Assembly (NCBI GenBank): GCA_013359125.1
Contig: JABWCR010000024.1
Coordinates: forward strand, 1-45,845
DNA: 45,845 nucleotides
Reading direction: 5' to 3'
Source of the DNA: Armatimonadota bacterium
GTDB lineage: Bacteria > Armatimonadota > Fimbriimonadia > Fimbriimonadales > GBS-DC
The notes under the pieces are model-generated. The model was given only the letters and a program-made list of their open reading frames with translations. It had not been told where the DNA came from and made no database searches. The position numbers were made by a program, and so were the translations under genes. This document shows, in pieces, positions 940-45,578 of the stretch (its first letter is position 1; every line of letters starts with the position of its first letter).

Positions 940-984
940 GGTTTTGGACGGGTTTTGGACGGCCTTTGGACGGCCTTTGGAACG
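940..984. repeat. 11-bp tandem repeat, four units (left flank)
   Basis: Four units follow each other: GGTTTTGGACG at 940 and 951, GCCTTTGGACG at 962 and GCCTTTGGAACG at 973 (the last one base longer). The array runs directly into the left end of the two-hairpin element at 979-1040, whose outer sequence GGAACGCC overlaps the last unit. Confidence 0.8.
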
Positions 985-1040
985 CCACCTTTCCAGGTGG
1001 CATCCAAAGTCAATAGGGCCAGGCGGAAGCCTGGCGTTCC
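979..1040 (+). repeat. 62-bp two-hairpin repeat element, copy 1
   Basis: The element starts with GGAACGCC and ends with the inverse GGCGTTCC. Inside are two 7-bp stems with 4-nt loops: GCCACCT-ttcc-AGGTGGC (985-1002) and GCCAGGC-ggaa-GCCTGGC (1019-1036), separated by 16 nt. A second copy in the opposite orientation, also exactly 62 bp with the same 16-nt spacer, lies at 15025-15086. The layout resembles REP/BIME-type mobile palindromes or a very small MITE. No transposase gene is nearby. Confidence 0.85.
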
Positions 1041-1076
1041 AACGGCGTTCCAACGGCGTTCCACTGGCGTTCCGAC
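1033..1076. repeat. 11-bp tandem repeat, four units (right flank)
   Basis: Four consecutive 11-bp units: GGCGTTCCAAC at 1033 and 1044, GGCGTTCCACT at 1055 and GGCGTTCCGAC at 1066. The 8-bp core GGCGTTCC is the terminal sequence of the two-hairpin element, here repeated with variable 3-nt spacers. The second copy of the element, near 15014-15086, has only one extra unit, so the unit number varies between copies. Confidence 0.85.
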
Positions 1077-12737: not shown

Positions 12738-14224
12738 AACTGGGCTTTTGGATCGCGTTGGCTCTGACGGCCGCGACCGGACAGGCGCAACTAAGGGTTG
12801 TAACATGGAACATCTCCAACTACAATGGTTCGAGAATGCCGGCCATCCGCACCGCGGTCTATGGCCAGTTCGAAGGCCGCAGCATGGCGCCCGACATCGT
12901 CATCACGCAGGAGTTCTTGAGCCAAGCGGCTGTGAACGACTTTCGCACCGCCCTCAACACCGCGACCGGCAGCCCGGGCGATTGGCAGGCCGCGCCTTTC
13001 ATTAACGGCCCCGACACCGACAGCGCCTTCTTTTATCGTTCCTCCAAGGTCGCCTTCCTTGGAGTCGAGGTCGTCGCGACCGGCTCCTCAGCGTCCGACA
13101 ATCAGCCCCGCAACACCTATCGATACGACATCCGCCTCATCGACTACGCCTCCGATGGCGCCCGGCTCTACTGCTACGCCACGCATATGAAGGCCGGCAA
13201 CACCACAACCGACCAGCAGCGCCGATTGGTCGAAGCCGAGCGCATCCGAGCCGACGCGCAGACCTTGCCTACCGGCTCGCACTTCCTCTTGGGCGGCGAT
13301 CTCAACGTTCCAAACAGCAATCAGGCCGCCTTTCAAACCCTCATCGCCAACACCGCCAACAATACTGGCCGCTTCTTCGACCCTATCAACACCTTGGGCA
13401 ACTGGAACAATCAGATGGCCATGCGCTTTGTGCACACTCAAGACCCTTGGGCGAACATGGACGACCGCTTCGACTTCATCCTCCTCTCGTCCAACCTGAT
13501 CGACGGCAACGGCTTCGACTACCTGGGCAATCCCGCCTATCCCTACAGCACGACCACATGGAACGATGCCAACCACTCCTACCGCGCATGGGGCAACGAC
13601 GGCGAGAGTTTCGGCGCCGGCATCCGCACCACAGGCAACACAATGGTCGGCCCGGCCATTGCGCAAGCCATCAAGGACGCCGCGACCACCAACGGCCATC
13701 TGCCTGTCTTTCTCGATCTGCGCGTGCCGCCTAAGGTCGATTCCGATGAGGTCTTGGATTTTGGCGTCGTCTTTAAGGGCGCCAATCCCCTTCGTACGCT
13801 GATGGTATGGAACTCCGGCAATGTGGGACTTTGGACGGCTAACGGCATTGCCGCGCTGAACTACGATCTCGTCGCGAGTTCGGGCTTCGTGGCGCCCAGC
13901 GGATCGTTCAGCGATGCCGCGGGCGGAGGCGCGAACAGCCACATCGTGCGAATGCAAACAGGCTCGCTGGGCGTCAAGACAGGTACGGTTACCATTCGAT
14001 CGAATGCGCCGGACGAGCCCGATCGCATAGTAACCGTGATGGGTCGCGTAGACCCGTCGGGCGATGTGGACGGTAACCGATGCGTGGATGACAGCGATCT
14101 CGCCGCAGTTCTAGCCGCTTTTGGCCAAACGGGCCAAGGCATAGACGAGGACGTGAACGAGGACGGCACTGTGGACGATCTCGACCTGGCGATCGTGCTC
14201 ACCAACTTCGGCTGGGGCTGCTAG
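12734..14224 (+). CDS. exported endonuclease/exonuclease/phosphatase-fold protein with dockerin-like tail
   Basis: 496 residues, starting at the ATG that overlaps the previous stop. A signal peptide (FWIALALTAATGQAQ) leads into an EEP domain (RVVTWNISNYNG, PDIVITQEF, the long middle part with HMKAGNT, LLGGDLNVPNS and DDRFDFILLS), covering about residues 20-330. Next comes a beta-sandwich domain of the HYDIN/choice-of-anchor type (about 335-440), then two EF-hand repeats of dockerin type (GDVDGNRCVDDSDLAAVLAAF and EDGTVDDLDLAIVLTNF) ending in GWGC. It is likely a secreted phosphodiesterase or nuclease; the substrate cannot be told. The tail probably serves anchoring or sorting, as in three other proteins here. 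Confidence 0.85.
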   Translation: MKLGFWIALALTAATGQAQLRVVTWNISNYNGSRMPAIRTAVYGQFEGRSMAPDIVITQEFLSQAAVNDFRTALNTATGSPGDWQAAPFINGPDTDSAFFYRSSKVAFLGVEVVATGSSASDNQPRNTYRYDIRLIDYASDGARLYCYATHMKAGNTTTDQQRRLVEAERIRADAQTLPTGSHFLLGGDLNVPNSNQAAFQTLIANTANNTGRFFDPINTLGNWNNQMAMRFVHTQDPWANMDDRFDFILLSSNLIDGNGFDYLGNPAYPYSTTTWNDANHSYRAWGNDGESFGAGIRTTGNTMVGPAIAQAIKDAATTNGHLPVFLDLRVPPKVDSDEVLDFGVVFKGANPLRTLMVWNSGNVGLWTANGIAALNYDLVASSGFVAPSGSFSDAAGGGANSHIVRMQTGSLGVKTGTVTIRSNAPDEPDRIVTVMGRVDPSGDVDGNRCVDDSDLAAVLAAFGQTGQGIDEDVNEDGTVDDLDLAIVLTNFGWGC

Positions 14225-14994
14225 CGCCGCTCCTCTCGATACATCTCCATCAGCTTATCGCCAAACGGCCGCCCGTCCGCCCGCATAAAGCCGCGATTGC
14301 GACGCCCAATGCGATCCCCAACCTGGCTGCGATGCGCGGCCAACGCTTGTTGCTTGATCTCGGCAACCTCCGTTACGTCCACCGCTGTGTTCGGTCGGCG
14401 AGTGTGAAATAGGAACAGCCTGGGGCGCGGTTGGGGCAACGAAAGCCAGTATCGCCGCACGATCTTGCCCGTGCCTTCGTGGTCTAAGTGAAAGTACGGC
14501 GGGCGCGGCCAGACAGGATCGAACGTCAGCACGGCGTCCGGCTTGACATCCCTCCAAACGGCAACAATCTTCTCCAAAACTCGCCGATGATACCGCTGCA
14601 CGCCACGATCGGGCATGTTCAGAAACTCCAATCGTTGGGCGCCGACGACTCTGGCCGCTTCTTCTTGCTCGGCCCTTCGTGTCTTGGCCAGATTCTGGCT
14701 GCCAATTCGATTGGGCCCCTTCTCGCCGTCGGTTACAATCACCATCGTAACCCTTGCGCCCGAATCGGACAGTCGTCTTAGGGTTCCTGCGGCGTACCAA
14801 TCCAAATCGTCCGGATGCGCGCCGATCGCCAGCACGTTGCGTGCGGTCAGCAGCGCTTCGCCGCTTTGTTCGGCTTCTTCGGGCGTCGCGGTCAGTTCGG
14901 ACTTTCCAAATGCGTATAAACCGGCCAATGCGATGCCCACGAACAGCCCTCCGACAGGCCACTTTGTCCAGCCTCTCCGTCGATTCGACTGCAT
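14221..14994 (-). CDS. PIG-L (LmbE) family deacetylase, membrane-anchored
   Basis: 257 residues. An N-terminal Arg-rich segment and one membrane helix (about 14-29) precede the catalytic domain. Zinc motifs are GAHPDDLDWYAAGT (His60, Asp63), TDGEKG and HLDH. The family removes N-acetyl groups from GlcNAc-type substrates. The ATG at 14994 is supported by a TAGAAT box ending 6 nt before it. The stop codons of this gene and of the convergent EEP-fold gene overlap in a 4-bp CTAG. Confidence 0.85.
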   Translation of the reverse strand: MQSNRRRGWTKWPVGGLFVGIALAGLYAFGKSELTATPEEAEQSGEALLTARNVLAIGAHPDDLDWYAAGTLRRLSDSGARVTMVIVTDGEKGPNRIGSQNLAKTRRAEQEEAARVVGAQRLEFLNMPDRGVQRYHRRVLEKIVAVWRDVKPDAVLTFDPVWPRPPYFHLDHEGTGKIVRRYWLSLPQPRPRLFLFHTRRPNTAVDVTEVAEIKQQALAAHRSQVGDRIGRRNRGFMRADGRPFGDKLMEMYREERR

Positions 14995-15024: not shown

Positions 15025-15086
15025 GGAACACCAGGCTCCTGCCTGGCCCGACCAGTCTCTTGAGCCACCCAGAAGGGTGGCGTTCC
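15025..15086 (-). repeat. 62-bp two-hairpin repeat element, copy 2 (inverted)
   Basis: Read on the minus strand this is GGAACGCC, stem GCCACCC-ttct-GGGTGGC, 16-nt spacer, stem GCCAGGC-agga-GCCTGGT, then GTTCC. It has the same length and spacing as copy 1 at 979-1040. The closing pair of the first stem is C-G here but T-A in copy 1, a compensatory change. One extra 11-bp unit (GGAACGCCCTC at 15014-15024) adjoins it. It sits between the PIG-L promoter and the regulator promoter. Confidence 0.85.
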
Positions 15087-15097
15087 GATTCAATAGG

Positions 15098-15103
15098 TAT
15101 AAT
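15098..15103 (+). promoter_or_regulatory. -10 box TATAAT of the DtxR/MntR-type regulator
   Basis: AGGTATAAT is followed by a 17-nt leader with GGAG before the ATG at 15121. The expected -35 position falls inside the second hairpin of the repeat element, where no TTGACA-like sequence is seen. Confidence 0.65.
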
Positions 15104-15120
15104 CCGCACGGAGCAGAGCC

Positions 15121-15534
15121 ATGAGCCGAGAGTCCAGCGTATCCATACAAGACTATCTCAAAACCATCTATCACTTAACAGAAGGCGACAAACCCGTCAG
15201 TACCGGCGTTCTAGCGCGCCGACTGAACTGCACGCCCGCAGCCGTCAGCCAGATGCTCCCCTTGCTATCGGAGAAGGGCTGGGTCGTGCACCAACCCTAC
15301 CGAGGCGTGCGACTGACCGAAACCGGCGTCAAGATCGCCGAAGAGATCGTCCGCCATCACCGCCTCTTAGAGCGATACCTCGTCGATCACCTGGGCTACG
15401 ACGCCGACAACGCGCACGACGAGGCCGAGCGATTAGAGCACCACATCTCCGAAGAGTTCGAAGCCAAGATCGCCGAGATCATGAACGACCCCGAAACCTG
15501 CCCGCACGGAAGCCCCATTCCGCCCCGACGCTAA
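15121..15534 (+). CDS. DtxR/MntR-family metal-dependent transcriptional regulator
   Basis: 137 residues. The N-terminal winged helix (IQDYLKTIYHL, LARRLNCTPAAVSQMLPLL) is followed by the dimerisation helix region with the metal ligands in HHRLLERYL and DEAERLEHHIS, and it ends CPHGSPIP, the usual end of the two-domain core. There is no SH3-like third domain, so it is MntR-sized. Such proteins repress metal uptake or activate export genes upon binding Mn(II) or Fe(II). Which metal applies here and the target genes are unknown; the heavy-metal operon at 4984-10844 is one candidate. Its stop overlaps the convergent radA stop by 4 bp. Confidence 0.85.
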   Translation: MSRESSVSIQDYLKTIYHLTEGDKPVSTGVLARRLNCTPAAVSQMLPLLSEKGWVVHQPYRGVRLTETGVKIAEEIVRHHRLLERYLVDHLGYDADNAHDEAERLEHHISEEFEAKIAEIMNDPETCPHGSPIPPRR

Positions 15535-16936: not shown

Positions 16937-18118
16937 TTACTCGGACGCACCGAAGTTGGTCAGAACGACTGCTAGGTCAATGTCGTCGATAACGCCGTCG
17001 CCGTTCACGTCGCCCCAGATAATCTCAGCGCTGCCGAACAGGAAGTCGCACAGCGTGACGCTGCCCGAAACGGCAAACGAAACGCCCAGACCGTTGTCCA
17101 TGCGCCGAATGTTCAGACCGGTAACGGTCGCCAGGTCGACAGGCAGCGTCATCAGGCCCTGCTCGTCCACATACGAATCGTATCGTGTCGTGAAACCGGC
17201 AGTCACGTACTCGGCCTGCACCATGTTCTTGCGCATGCCTTCCTCAACGCCGTCGTTGTCCTGGTCAAAGCCAGCGATGAACGGATCGATGGGCTGAGCG
17301 CGCTCGGCCAAGGCGGAGTGATCCAACTGAAGGACCACATTGTGCGTGCCGCGCAGCGCGTAGGCAAAGCTACCGACCATCGACGTGGTGAAGGTGAACG
17401 CGCCGGCAGGAGTCTGGCGGCGGAAGGTGCAGCGACCAGGCTCTAAATGGACGTTGCCAGGGGTGCCGTTCGAAATGATCCAGCCTGCGCCAACGATCGA
17501 GTTTAGTTCCATCAGGAAGCCCTTGGTAAGCGGCAAAGGAACGTCGCCATTGGTTGGCGGCACCGGCACTGTAACGTACAGAATGTCGCCGGCAGCGGCA
17601 GGACCAAGGTTCAGAACGCCGCTTTCCCAAAGCACTACGCTGCTGACGAACGGGTCGTCGGCAGAGGTGCCGTTCCAATTGCGCAGTCTCAGATTGATCG
17701 CTACATTGCCGACAGCAACAGGAGCAAACAACAGCACGTCCACTTCGTAAACGCATGCCACGGGCGACGTAACGCTCCAAGGTCCAAAGTACGCGCGACC
17801 GGTGCCGGCCGCGTTCAGACCCCCGGCCAACTGACCATGATCGCCCCAGGCAGTCGTGGCCCAGTTGGTGTCCGCAAAGTAGGTGAACGAATAGGTGCCA
17901 TCGTCCGCCTGCTTCCAGATTGTGCTGTTGCTAAAAAGAACTGGGGGCCGCAGATCGCCCTGAATGCCGGCGTTCGGCGACAGGTTGATGCGACGAATGT
18001 TGATCTGATCCTTGTTCAAGGTAACGACTTCAGGCGCAATCTCCTGGATCTGGCTGAAGGCCGTACCTACGAGACCGACCAAGGCTGCGCTGACCATCAA
18101 GCTAAATCGAGCTTTCAT
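16937..18118 (-). CDS. exported protein with single dockerin-like EF-hand (paralogue A)
   Basis: 393 residues. A signal peptide (MVSAALVGLVGTAFSQ) is followed by a long beta-rich body without known catalytic motifs, containing AYFGPWSV, ACVYEVDVLLFAP, GAGWIISNGTPGNV and RGTHNVVLQLDHS. Then FDQDNDGVEEG, a calcium-loop-like motif, and at the end one EF-hand loop (GDVNGDGVIDDIDLAVVLTNF) with the tail GASE. It is a tandem paralogue of the gene at 18337-19524. The function is unknown; it is probably a secreted or surface structural or binding protein. The start is supported by a strong Shine-Dalgarno AAAGGAGG. Confidence 0.8.
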   Translation of the reverse strand: MKARFSLMVSAALVGLVGTAFSQIQEIAPEVVTLNKDQINIRRINLSPNAGIQGDLRPPVLFSNSTIWKQADDGTYSFTYFADTNWATTAWGDHGQLAGGLNAAGTGRAYFGPWSVTSPVACVYEVDVLLFAPVAVGNVAINLRLRNWNGTSADDPFVSSVVLWESGVLNLGPAAAGDILYVTVPVPPTNGDVPLPLTKGFLMELNSIVGAGWIISNGTPGNVHLEPGRCTFRRQTPAGAFTFTTSMVGSFAYALRGTHNVVLQLDHSALAERAQPIDPFIAGFDQDNDGVEEGMRKNMVQAEYVTAGFTTRYDSYVDEQGLMTLPVDLATVTGLNIRRMDNGLGVSFAVSGSVTLCDFLFGSAEIIWGDVNGDGVIDDIDLAVVLTNFGASE

Positions 18119-18336: not shown

Positions 18337-19524
18337 TTACTCGGACGCGCCGAAGTTGGTCAAGACCACAGCAAGGTCGGTGTCGTCAACGATGCCGTCG
18401 CCGTTCACGTCGCCCCAGATAATCTCGGCAGCGCCGAACAGGAAGTCGCACAGCGTGGCGCTGCCCGAAACGGCAAACGAAACGCCCAGACCGTTGTCCA
18501 TGCGTCGCAGCGTCAGGCCGGTAACGGCGGCCGTATTGACAGGCAGCGTTACGACGCCCTGCTGATCCACATACGAATCGTAGCGAGTCGTGAAACCAGC
18601 GGTCGTGTAATCGACGGAGATTGTGTTCTTTCGCCAGCCTTCCTCAACGCCGTCGTTGTCCTGGTCGAAACCAAGCAACATCGGGTCGCCAGGCTGAGAA
18701 CGAGGCGCCAGACCCGAATGATCGAGCTGGATGACCACGTTGTGCGTGCCGCGTACGCCCCAGGCCAGGTTTCCGATCATCGAGGTGCCCCAGACGTAAT
18801 CAAAACCGTCGGCCTGTCGAGTGAAGCCCGACATGCCCGGCTCCGACCAAACGTTGCCAGGAAGCGCGTTGGAAATGATCCAACCGGCGCCGACCAACTG
18901 TCGAACCTCAAGGAAGACGCCCTTGCCCATTACCAATGGGTTGCCAAGGCCGTCCGCATCGACGGGAATCGAAACGTACAGGATATCGCCAGCCGCCACA
19001 GGGCCGAGATTCAGAGAACCGCTCGTCCACAACAACGGCTGGTTGGCAAACGGATTGCTGCCGAAGGTGCCGTTAAAGTTGCGGAGACCCACTTCCAACT
19101 GAGCGTTCGCATTGGCCGCAGGCGCAAACAGCAGGATATCGACCTGATAGACGCAGGCATTCGGATCCACATTGTTGTCGTTCCATGGGCCATAGTAAGC
19201 AGGACCGGTCAAAGCGGCATTGCGACCGCCGGCCATCATGCCCTGGTCGCCCCAGAACGAAGTAACGAAGTTGCCCTCGCCAAAAAACTGGAACGAGTAG
19301 GTGCCGTCGTTGCCGTAGCGCAAAATCTGCGATTGGCCGAACAGCATAGGCGGCTCGATCGTGCCCTGAACACGGGCGTTTGCCGCCAAGTTGATGCGGC
19401 GGAGATTGATTTGATCCTTGGGGAGTACGACGGTGGTCGGCTCGATCGTCTTCATCTGACTGAAAGCCGTACCAATCAGGCCGACAAGCGCGGCGCTGAC
19501 TAAAACGCCAAAACGTGCGTTCAT
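18337..19524 (-). CDS. exported protein with single dockerin-like EF-hand (paralogue B)
   Basis: 395 residues, colinear with the gene at 16937-18118: signal peptide (VSAALVGLIGTAFSQ), then the shared blocks KDQIN-RRINL, AYYGPW, ACVYQVDILLFAP, GAGWIISNALPGNV, RGTHNVVIQLDHS and FDQDNDGVEEG, and the same ending GDVNGDGIVDDTDLAVVLTNF-GASE. The final 190 or so nt of the two genes are nearly identical, with at least one block of about 46 identical bases, while the middle parts have diverged more. The function is unknown. A strong Shine-Dalgarno (AAAGGAGG) precedes the ATG at 19524. Confidence 0.8.
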   Translation of the reverse strand: MNARFGVLVSAALVGLIGTAFSQMKTIEPTTVVLPKDQINLRRINLAANARVQGTIEPPMLFGQSQILRYGNDGTYSFQFFGEGNFVTSFWGDQGMMAGGRNAALTGPAYYGPWNDNNVDPNACVYQVDILLFAPAANANAQLEVGLRNFNGTFGSNPFANQPLLWTSGSLNLGPVAAGDILYVSIPVDADGLGNPLVMGKGVFLEVRQLVGAGWIISNALPGNVWSEPGMSGFTRQADGFDYVWGTSMIGNLAWGVRGTHNVVIQLDHSGLAPRSQPGDPMLLGFDQDNDGVEEGWRKNTISVDYTTAGFTTRYDSYVDQQGVVTLPVNTAAVTGLTLRRMDNGLGVSFAVSGSATLCDFLFGAAEIIWGDVNGDGIVDDTDLAVVLTNFGASE

Positions 19525-22189: not shown

Positions 22190-22780
22190 GTGCTCACAGC
22201 CCAACAAGCCTTGGATCGTCTGTTAGAAGGCAACCAGCGATTCGCCCTGAACCTGGGCGCTCGGGCTGGCGCTTTCTGTGCCGCTCGTAGAGAACAGTTG
22301 CTAAACGAACAGAAGCCGTTCGCAATCGTGCTCGGCTGCTCCGATTCCCGCGTGCCGGCCGAAATCGTCTTCGACCAAGGCCTAGGCGATCTCTTCGTCA
22401 TCCGCATCGCCGGCAACATCGTCCAACCCTCTCAAATCGGCAGCGTCGAGTTCGCGGCCCACATGTTCGGCGTCCGCCTGGCCGTCGTCCTGGGGCACAC
22501 TCAATGCGGCGCCGTGCAAGCTGCGCTGGATGCCGCCAAAGACAACGCTCCGGCGCTATCGCCCAACATCGAAACCATCGTTGATCGCATTCGCCCGGCT
22601 ATCCGACACTTAGCGGATGCCGATCTGGACGAAGCCGTCAAAGCCAACGTCCGCCACTCGGTCGATCAACTGCGCAACGGATCTTCAATCCTACTGAACC
22701 TGCAGGAGAACGACGGCCTCTTAATAGTCGGCGCCGTCTACTCGCTCGAAACCGGATACGTCGAAATCATCGACCCTTAA
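22190..22780 (+). CDS. beta-class carbonic anhydrase
   Basis: 196 residues. Zinc ligands Cys50 (GCSDSR, with the Asp52-Arg54 dyad), His103 and Cys106 (GHTQCGAV) are intact, and LLEGNQRFA at the N-terminus is typical. It interconverts CO2 and bicarbonate. The start is taken as the GTG at 22190, where the protein-family N-terminus begins. Unlike many neighbours, no -10 box lies 6-7 nt upstream (an AGTAAACC sequence is too close), so the start is less certain. The stop overlaps the next, convergent gene by 4 bp. Confidence 0.92.
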   Translation: MLTAQQALDRLLEGNQRFALNLGARAGAFCAARREQLLNEQKPFAIVLGCSDSRVPAEIVFDQGLGDLFVIRIAGNIVQPSQIGSVEFAAHMFGVRLAVVLGHTQCGAVQAALDAAKDNAPALSPNIETIVDRIRPAIRHLADADLDEAVKANVRHSVDQLRNGSSILLNLQENDGLLIVGAVYSLETGYVEIIDP

Positions 22781-23550
22781 CCAGCGAAAACCTCGGCCAA
22801 GAATGAGGTCAGATGCTCCCAGGATCGCCGATCAGCCGTCGCATTGTACGCATTGCCGCTCGCAACGTTGTTCCCGGCAAACGGATTGGTAAAACTGTGC
22901 ACCGCGCCGCTGTACGCGATAAACTGGTAATCGACCTTCGCCTCTTTGAACTCCTTGAGCATGGCGTTCAATTGACTGTCCGGCACCAACGGATCGTCCG
23001 CGCCGTGCGAAATCACAACCTTAGCCTTAATCCGTTTCGTGCCTTCCGCGTCCAGCGTCGGGCTGCCGTGAAAGCTGACCGCCCCGCGAATATCCGCGCC
23101 CGTCCTGGCCAGCTCGACCGCCGCCGTGCCGCCAAAACAGTAGCCGATCACGACGATCTTGTTCGCATCCACTTTCGGGTGCTTCTTCAAAGCGTCTAAC
23201 GCGGCCGTCAAACGCTTGCGAAACAGCGGCATATCGCCTCGATACTTGGCCGACTCGCGCATCGACCCGGCCGTGTCGGTCGGGCGCACGCCCTTGCCAT
23301 AAATATCGCCCGCAAGCGCCACATAGCCCATTCCGGCCAGCTGCTTGGCCCGATTGCGCTCGTAATCGTCGATCGAGTTCCAATCGTGAATGATCAGCAC
23401 GCCGGGGCGTTTGCCAAGCGCGTGATCGTCGTAGGCGATGTAGCCCTCCATCGGGCTGTCGCCTTCTTTATACTCGTAGGGCTCGGCCACCACGTGCGCT
23501 GAGGCGACGGTAAACATCGACAGAGCGAGCAACGCAACTAAGGTGTTCAT
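22777..23550 (-). CDS. exported dienelactone hydrolase family protein
   Basis: 257 residues from the ATG at 23550 (TAGAAT box 7 nt upstream; the open frame to 23634 runs across the divergent promoter and is rejected). A signal peptide (VALLALSMFTVASA) precedes an alpha/beta-hydrolase fold. The catalytic triad is visible as Cys138 in GYCFGG, Asp185/186 in HGADDPLVP and His218 in GAVHSF. HDWNSIDDYERNRA is the usual oxyanion region. True dienelactone hydrolases are cytoplasmic; this exported form probably has another ester substrate. Confidence 0.87.
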   Translation of the reverse strand: MNTLVALLALSMFTVASAHVVAEPYEYKEGDSPMEGYIAYDDHALGKRPGVLIIHDWNSIDDYERNRAKQLAGMGYVALAGDIYGKGVRPTDTAGSMRESAKYRGDMPLFRKRLTAALDALKKHPKVDANKIVVIGYCFGGTAAVELARTGADIRGAVSFHGSPTLDAEGTKRIKAKVVISHGADDPLVPDSQLNAMLKEFKEAKVDYQFIAYSGAVHSFTNPFAGNNVASGNAYNATADRRSWEHLTSFLAEVFAG

Positions 23551-44292: not shown

Positions 44293-45375
44293 ATGCGCGT
44301 CGCCGTTGTCGGCCTGGGCATCGCGGGCGCCTCTGCGCTCTATTGGCTGTCCAAACAAGGCGCTCAAGCCGACGGCTACGACCAGTTCTATCCAGGCTCC
44401 GAGCAAGGCAGCTCGCACGGCTCGGCGCGAATCATCCGATACTCCTACCCCGATCCGCTCTATGCCGGATTAATGAAGGAAGGCTATCGACTGTGGCGCG
44501 AATTAGAAAGCGCGACCGACCGCCAAATGATCATAACCACTGGCGGCATCTACTTCGGACCGGCCGATCATCCTGAGATAATAGCCACCGAATCAGCCCT
44601 GATCGAGTGCGGCGCCGACTACGAGAAACTCTCCCATGCCGCCGACCGCTTCCCCCTGATCAAGTTCTACGATGGCGAGGCGGCCCTCTATCAGCCAGAC
44701 ATGGGCTACATAACAGAACCGGGACGGTGCGCAGAAGAGATCGTAAGACGCTCGCACGCGCGCTTTCAAGGCGACAGAGTTCTGCGCGTTGATCCTGACG
44801 GATCGGTCCATACTCGTTCGTCCGTTACAAAGTACGATGCCGTGATCATTGCGGCAGGCGCCTGGATGAACCAGTTCGCCCCAAACCTTCCGGTCGCGCC
44901 CACAGCCCAACAGATGGTCTACTTTCGCCCTACGCTCCCCATCTCTCAGTTTTCTCCGCCAAACTACCCCGTATGGATCGACGCCGATACCCACTACTAC
45001 GGCCTGCCCTGGAACGGCAAGACCCAGGGCATCCGCGTCTCCGCCCACATCCGCGGCCCACAAATCGACCCCGATGCTGATCGACCGGACCTCAACGAAG
45101 AAACCGACCGCATCCGAGCCTACATCGACCGTCGCCTCTCAGGTCTATCCGACGATGTGGTCTTTTCAAGCCCATGCGTCTATACCAACACGCCCGACGA
45201 GGACTTCGTTCTCGACTTCTCTCCCGAATCCAAAAAGATCGTATACCTGTCCGCTTGCTCGGGCCACGGCTTCAAATTCGGCCCCCTAATGGGCAAATTG
45301 GCTGCGGAGATGGCGCTGAGCGGCGACCGTTCCATACCGCCCGAACGCTTCCGCCTCGACCGCCTGCTTAAGTAA
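44293..45375 (+). CDS. FAD-dependent oxidase (monomeric sarcosine oxidase/N-methyltryptophan oxidase family)
   Basis: 360 residues. The FAD site VVGLGIAGASALYWL, the SSHGSARIIRYSY motif after it and CVYTNTPDEDFVLDF match the MSOX/MTOX family; the Cys of PCVYT corresponds to the covalent-flavin Cys in that family, and SGHGFKFGP is also typical. It oxidises N-methyl amino acids or similar amines with production of H2O2. No signal peptide, so cytoplasmic. The stop codon TAA lies at the first unit of the downstream repeat array. Confidence 0.87.
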   Translation: MRVAVVGLGIAGASALYWLSKQGAQADGYDQFYPGSEQGSSHGSARIIRYSYPDPLYAGLMKEGYRLWRELESATDRQMIITTGGIYFGPADHPEIIATESALIECGADYEKLSHAADRFPLIKFYDGEAALYQPDMGYITEPGRCAEEIVRRSHARFQGDRVLRVDPDGSVHTRSSVTKYDAVIIAAGAWMNQFAPNLPVAPTAQQMVYFRPTLPISQFSPPNYPVWIDADTHYYGLPWNGKTQGIRVSAHIRGPQIDPDADRPDLNEETDRIRAYIDRRLSGLSDDVVFSSPCVYTNTPDEDFVLDFSPESKKIVYLSACSGHGFKFGPLMGKLAAEMALSGDRSIPPERFRLDRLLK

Positions 45376-45578
45376 CGCCGGCTTGCCCAAGTACCGCCGG
45401 CCCCCCAAGTACCGCCGGCGTCCCCGCCGGCCCCCCCAAGTACCGCCGGCGTCCCCAAGTACCGCCGGCGTCCCCAAGTACCGCCGGCGTCCCCGCCTGG
45501 CCCCGTCTCGAAAAGTACCGCCGGCGTCCACGCCGGCCCCGTCTCGAAAAGTACCGCCGGCCTCCCCGCCGGCCCCGT
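45370..45578. repeat. GC-rich tandem array of AAGTACCGCCGGC units
   Basis: Eight units begin with AAGTA(C/A)CGCCGGC at 45370, 45389, 45407, 45438, 45457, 45476, 45513 and 45549. Spacings are 18-19, 31 or 36-37 nt. Most continue as GTCCCC, and longer units add GCCGGCCCCGTCTCGAA, so GCCGGC copies can pair into hairpins. The first unit overlaps the last codons of the FAD oxidase gene: TAC of the consensus is TAA there and forms its stop codon. Confidence 0.85.

Follow-up and report, generated by a model that had tools for sequence, protein, structure and literature searches.

A GGAAC-tagged, REP-like hairpin doublet in a genome of the Armatimonadota, and the association of such doublets with one clade of RAYT genes in other phyla

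Features of the locus

The window, by which we mean the whole 45,845-nt stretch of DNA analysed here, carries two related pairs of hairpins, the first of which (element 1) is framed by short tandem arrays, as well as a cluster of a second palindromic family. These features, and the genes flanking the second pair, are as follows.

943-981, + strand: degenerate array of TTTGGACGGCC units with an 11-bp period, lying outward of the left tag and mirroring the array on the right
979-1040, no strand assigned: REP doublet (REPIN/BIME unit) with tags outward (head-head), from sequence, unit pattern and fold
979-1001, + strand: REP unit of stem type ACCT, GGAAC-GCCACCT-TTCC-AGGTGGC, an exact match to the unit pattern
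1018-1040, - strand: REP unit of stem type AGGC (the commonest), GGAAC-GCCAGGC-TTCC-GCCTGGC
1033-1073, - strand: tandem partial units from the tag side (GGAACGCC + 3 nt) in 11-bp steps, 4 in all with the REP's own tag counted
14221-14994, - strand: PIG-L gene, one flank of the second doublet
15025-15086, no strand assigned: second REP doublet, stem types in reversed order, 78% identical to the first
15025-15047, + strand: AGGC-type REP unit, its foot altered at one position (GGAACACC)
15064-15086, - strand: REP unit of ACCC type
15121-15534, + strand: iron-dependent-repressor-type gene, other flank of the second doublet
45370-45578, + strand: cluster of a second REP family with tag GTACC, AAGTACC-GCCGGCG-TCCY-CGCCGGC

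Element 1 reads GGAAC-GCCACCT-TTCC-AGGTGGC, 16 nt, GCCAGGC-GGAA-GCCTGGC-GTTCC (or, written by its arms, GGAACGCCACCTTTCCAGGTGGC-N16-GCCAGGCGGAAGCCTGGCGTTCC), and together with its arrays it makes up the region 940-1076 of a preliminary description of this DNA. The two hairpins with 4-nt loops seen there are indeed both present. As a single strand, element 1 folds at -18.7 kcal/mol (z -5.5), which none of 200 shuffles equals. The window has 11 occurrences of the 8-mer GGCGTTCC (3.4 expected), a number that none of 100 shuffles attains, and 4 of these follow each other in 11-bp steps within 1033-1073. The multiplication of the 8-mer with 3-nt spacers had been described for the right side only, where those 4 copies bear it out; the left side has its own array, at 943-981. 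Similarly, the inverted 8-mer ends are a property of element 1, but the outer end of the second doublet reads GGAACACC instead of GGAACGCC.

The second doublet is inverted relative to element 1, as previously claimed, and is 78% identical to it. Its end at 15086 is followed after ~12 bp by a TATAAT-like box and after 34 bp by the first base of the iron-dependent-repressor-type gene, the promoter of which it may touch (window 15086-15121). The cluster at 45370-45578 contains full GTACC units along with half units from the tag side, repeated in tandem at 17-19 bp, and belongs to the same family that borders one of the RAYT genes of this genome (that on contig C17, see below; the RAYTs of this genome are named after their contigs). 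Elsewhere in the window, the genes at 16937-18118 (without a Pfam match) and 18337-19524 are similar and adjacent to each other (repeat D1, 82% over 300 bp).

The repeated unit and its distribution in the genome

What recurs throughout the genome is a single hairpin plus foot of 23 nt, GGAAC-GCCnnnn-TYCY-n'n'n'n'GGC (i.e., GGAACGCCNNNNTYCYNNNNGGC), of which there are 73 exact copies, almost equally divided between the two orientations (36/37), and 106 copies if one mismatch is allowed, whilst the same pattern read backwards, used as control, gives none and 4, respectively. The preliminary description had proposed such a genome-wide search, with the lack of further copies as the outcome that would speak against it, and its small dispersed palindromic element with inverted ends is well supported by these numbers. 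Given the 73 exact copies, the excess of GGCGTTCC in the window and the low fold z of element 1, it is practically impossible that the two window copies are a chance pair. The basic unit is one hairpin of 23 nt, 5-nt tag included, and the 62-bp object is a doublet of that hairpin.

Searching the stretches from this genome for the hairpin only returned one foot, G, G, A, A, C, conserved at 93-100% per position and preceded on its 5' side by two pyrimidines (T/C in 89% and 95%); at the opposite foot only one position is conserved, and that partly. This one-sided conservation gives the element a polarity and a 5-nt tag. In 372 kb, 88% of which is coding, 41 of 42 units lie between genes, a count resting on a home-made and crude gene caller, and they occupy co-directional, convergent and divergent gaps without strong preference, in roughly the proportions of intergenic DNA itself. 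The majority of copies are solitary hairpins, tagged at one side only. Where two of them are close neighbours (i.e., with starts up to about 50 nt apart, their orientation judged by eye from the copy list), 10 pairs out of 14 are head-head, the remainder being joints of tandem doublets and one direct pair, and in 8 of the 10 head-head pairs an AGGC stem is combined with a non-AGGC one (33% expected, P 0.003). Spacers within doublets vary between about 2 and 16 nt, and the fixed 16-nt spacer previously proposed comes from a chance agreement in length between the two window copies, the spacer sequences of which differ; elsewhere it is ~2 to 13 nt.

The location of these hairpins between genes could also be expected of immobile, host-made RNA signals such as mRNA stabilisers and terminators, and a role of this kind, acquired after spreading, is thought to be common for REPs (PMC3733652). 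Against this interpretation, there is no terminator call around 979-1040 and no Rfam family matches there, the distribution of units over gap types is roughly that of intergenic DNA, the tag is invariant even though it is unpaired, and the same family, whilst absent from near relatives, accompanies RAYT genes in other phyla. We consider it very unlikely as an explanation of the family, although some of the copies may be in secondary use as RNA signals.

The 11-bp arrays are a different matter. Looking up to 40 nt upstream of the tag, an extra GGAACGCC 8-mer is found for 11 of 52 units of this genome, mostly 11-15 nt away, where the window background rate leads to an estimate of ~0.06. In other genomes, such an extra 8-mer is found for 9 of 252 units, only one of them at a spacing below 27 nt and nearly all at 27-33 nt, which fits whole neighbouring REPs. 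The variable-number end repeats of the preliminary description are, then, real in this genome but secondary, lying outside the general element. The GTACC family of the same genome has the same habit, with tag-side half units 17-19 bp apart. The end arrays are probably tag-side partial units that would have arisen by strand slippage or by aborted processing at the foot of the hairpin.

The other 290 genomes of the phylum contain 0-3 occurrences of the unit pattern each, about the frequency of the reversed control, and the free arms of these occurrences are mostly unpaired. By these chance-like counts, the GGAAC family is, among its relatives in the phylum, private to this lineage. Several other short palindromic families (GGGAGGGCGAGCGTCCCCGCGAGCC, CTCCACACC-type, GCTCCCCTCCCTAAACTCGCC...) stand in mosaic with the GGAAC REPs (e.g., at L004, L012 and L026), and a longer element around AATGTAGCACAATTTTGAGTACGAATC is likewise present in the flanks of many REPs of this genome.

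The same doublet in other phyla and its link to RAYT genes

A pattern leaving the stems free (GGAACGCC-N12-GGC-N4..30-GCC-N12-GGCGTTCC) is matched in GTDB genomes by at least 120 stretches from many phyla, where we estimate about one by chance in the whole 257 Gb. Among the matches listed, records with the doublet come from Verrucomicrobia, Lentisphaerae/Victivallales, Kiritimatiellae, Planctomycetes, Acidobacteria, Chlorobiaceae, Chloroflexi, Methylobacter, other Proteobacteria, Sumerlaeota and more, and both free stems are perfectly paired in 66 of the 83 doublets. Of 270 units from the loci among these matches, 225 are perfectly paired, by means of 23 different stems, as compared to a mean of 37 (maximum 53) when the 3' arms of the 270 units are dealt anew. 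The conserved thing is the palindrome and not the sequence of its stem. Outside the genome studied here, a C-Y-G run precedes GGAAC.

Eight doublet loci among the matches listed hold a C17-type RAYT, with GGAAC REPs inside the gene or within 1 kb of it, and in four of these RAYTs a GGAAC REP read in reverse (e.g., AATGCCGAGCTGGGGCTCGGCGTTCC) encodes the peptide NAELGLGVP, which lies between HuH and Tyr motifs. Genes of this type are present in 25 of 31 doublet-bearing genomes, versus 74 of 291 genomes of the phylum of the window. RAYTs of that phylum picked by protein similarity alone are bordered by hairpins with GTGG, GTAG, GTACC, GGAGC or GGACC feet, and no GGAAC foot was found beside them. 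In a tree of 60 RAYTs, the GGAAC label requires 4 changes against a mean of 12.7 after shuffling (none of 500 shuffles as low). Twelve of the 14 GGAAC rows fall, across several phyla, into one clade (support 99/98, in a tree whose bootstrap is not fully settled); 8 of the 14 come from loci chosen for their doublet and 6 were picked by protein similarity within genomes chosen for it. In other genomes with the doublet, we thus see the arrangement that defines a REPtron, i.e., a RAYT bordered by one and the same REP family. At one locus (L277), GGAAC, GGAGC and GGATC hairpins all stand beside one RAYT.

The 8-bp inverted ends of the doublet might still lead one to see it as a MITE of an ordinary DDE transposase, GGAACGCC/GGCGTTCC being its terminal inverted repeats. 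Such a reading is at odds with most copies being single hairpins with a one-sided tag, with stems that covary while the foot stays fixed, and with the linked genes, which are Y1 RAYTs; nor could we see by eye any target duplication in the flanks. A MITE is, in our opinion, extremely improbable.

Nature of the element and its proposed movement

A dispersed, high-copy palindrome of 23 nt on both strands falls within the 20-40 bp of REPs, and the extragenic location, the conserved unpaired motif at one foot and the inverted doublets are all characteristic of them. From the observed structure, copy number, intergenic placement, stem covariation, invariant tag, 5' pyrimidines, outward two-stem pairing and association with RAYTs elsewhere, we conclude with considerable confidence that this is a REP doublet (BIME/REPIN) from a non-autonomous, GGAAC-tagged family, which would have spread as single-stranded DNA hairpins processed by a RAYT of the group 4/subclass 2.4 kind.

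The processing enzyme would be a RAYT, i.e., TnpA-REP, a single-strand transposase of the HuH/Y1 type. Enzymes of this kind bind the REP in its folded single-stranded form, depend on its foot motif and cut at a CT dinucleotide next to the fold (PMC8266576), and cleavage, movement and their chemistry are taken over here from published work on them. The 7-bp hairpins would fold when the DNA becomes single-stranded (e.g., in the lagging-strand template), and the unpaired GGAAC foot would act as the recognition tag, just as GTAG does for E. coli TnpA-REP. The enzyme would then cut beside the foot and join the piece elsewhere in single-stranded intergenic DNA. The pyrimidines 5' of GGAAC, and the C-Y-G run in other genomes, would be compatible with a cleavage site at that place. 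By this analogy, GGAAC REPs would be mobilised by a TnpA-REP.

Relation to known REP systems

Our literature search, which covered work other than the RAYT-group survey of Bertels et al. 2017, found no description of GGAAC feet, and an earlier report may exist. Bertels et al. 2017 are said to have defined the RAYT groups. The build that the preliminary description found unfamiliar is the REP/BIME (REPIN) build known from many bacteria; what is new is the GGAAC variant of the tag, which is unlike both published classes and tracks a RAYT clade, whilst the mechanism is the one we infer above.

Like the GTAG REPs/BIMEs/REPINs that go with TnpA-REP/RAYT in E. coli, Pseudomonas and Stenotrophomonas (PMC2817692, PMC3116915, PMC8266576), the GGAAC elements are short intergenic palindromes with an unpaired foot on one side, they form inverted outward doublets with two stem types each, and their REPs stand beside single-copy RAYTs. 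Related REP types in E. coli are paired in a way similar to the two-stem GGAAC doublets (PMC6006769). The GTAG systems differ in that their foot is GTAG/GTGG, and in that the present assembly has no RAYT of the matching clade. Most REPs have been sorted into GTAG and CGTC classes (PMC3733652). With its GGAAC foot, the family belongs neither to the GTAG super-family (foot GTAG/GTRG) nor to the CGTC one (foot CGTC). The CGTC-tagged REPs resemble it as small tagged palindromes, often dimers, but have another tag and no dedicated transposase reported (PMC3733652).

The RAYTs beside GGAAC doublets have sequences resembling TnpA-Y1 subclass 2.4 (RAYT group 4). Those of the GGAAC clade carry NH[IFV]H, Y---NP and an in-frame REP insert between HuH and Y, a likeness judged from the alignment and the REP-coded stretch. 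A similar protein length, the NHVH motif, the Y---NP signature and a variable insert between HuH and Y are given for subclass 2.4 in PMC6006769, where REPs lying in frame inside the RAYT gene, as in the GGAAC-clade genes, are described as a mark of it. The feet of the subclass are given there as GT[AG]G, with long and double-foot types, and the text consulted contains no mention of GGAAC, GGAGC, GGACC or GTACC feet.

It is tempting to go further, and to regard GGANC REPs (GGAAC together with GGAGC, GGACC and GGATC) as a third large tag class beside GTAG and CGTC, found in some ten phyla with one RAYT branch that carries its own REP as coding sequence. The foot would co-evolve with the RAYT clade, and abortive foot processing would leave tandem partial units (11 bp for GGAAC, 17-19 bp for GTACC) as a record of RAYT activity. 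We offer this as speculation, and think it rather unlikely to hold in full. REPs are usually found by their GTAG foot; with a GGAAC foot occurring in many phyla and linked to a single RAYT clade, any GTAG-based survey will overlook some of them. In addition, the natural series of feet GTAG, GTGG, GTACC, GGAGC, GGACC and GGAAC, matched to their RAYT proteins, makes the reading of the tag by the enzyme testable by swaps of tags and proteins.

RAYT genes of the genome carrying the element

Three RAYTs of this genome match the curated REP-associated transposase model NF047646 above its cut-off (one of them, C28, when read across its frameshift). A profile of the GGAAC-clade RAYTs and C17 run over the genome returned only these three, none of which is of the GGAAC clade, and each has another hairpin family as its recurrent border: GTACC hairpins, and no GGAAC, on both sides of C17, which falls outside the GGAAC clade in the tree; GGAGTGCGCCGGC-type hairpins at C21; and, at C28, CTCCACACC hairpins of the sort that borders its relatives from other genomes too. 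A REPtron with the GGAAC family is, therefore, not seen here.

One GGAAC doublet does lie ~130 bp from the C28 RAYT, upstream, and this gene was considered as the cognate enzyme. It was rejected, its relatives L087, L088 and L091 being bordered, like C28 itself, by CCTC(A/C)AC-type hairpins. The gene (contig C28, 20.5-21.1 kb, locus L041) appears to shift frame near its middle, which makes it either a pseudogene or an assembly error.

In the absence of a GGAAC-clade RAYT from the assembly, the family looks orphaned or moved in trans by C17; it is probably either of these, the orphan being a relic of a RAYT lost or left unassembled. A few hundred bases at most separate the ends of many of the 47 contigs from a GGAAC REP. 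The choice between a resident C17 RAYT (tag GTACC) still moving the GGAAC family and a relic of a lost GGAAC-clade RAYT concerns the mover and not the kind of element. Apart from C17, the assembly has no intact RAYT of the right type; the two families share the G-x-A-x-C frame, the GCC...GGC stem foot and the TYCY loop, and both have tandem tag-side partial units in this genome; moreover, the three tag variants beside one RAYT at L277 suggest that a single enzyme may accept several tags. On the other hand, the hairpins flanking C17 are all of the GTACC kind, the tree puts C17 outside the GGAAC clade, and in published work each TnpA-REP is paired with its own REP family (PMC6006769). Movement in trans by C17 is a fair contender, but one we would not favour over the relic.

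A further gene, on contig C18 at ~22724-23425 (+ strand, locus L042), combines a Y1-transposase-like domain (PF01797) with a sigma-70 region-4-like tail (PF04545, just below cut-off), and has relatives in 16 genomes of the same family. At the HuH motif it has NQVHL or DNQVIV, so the nuclease is probably inactive and domesticated.
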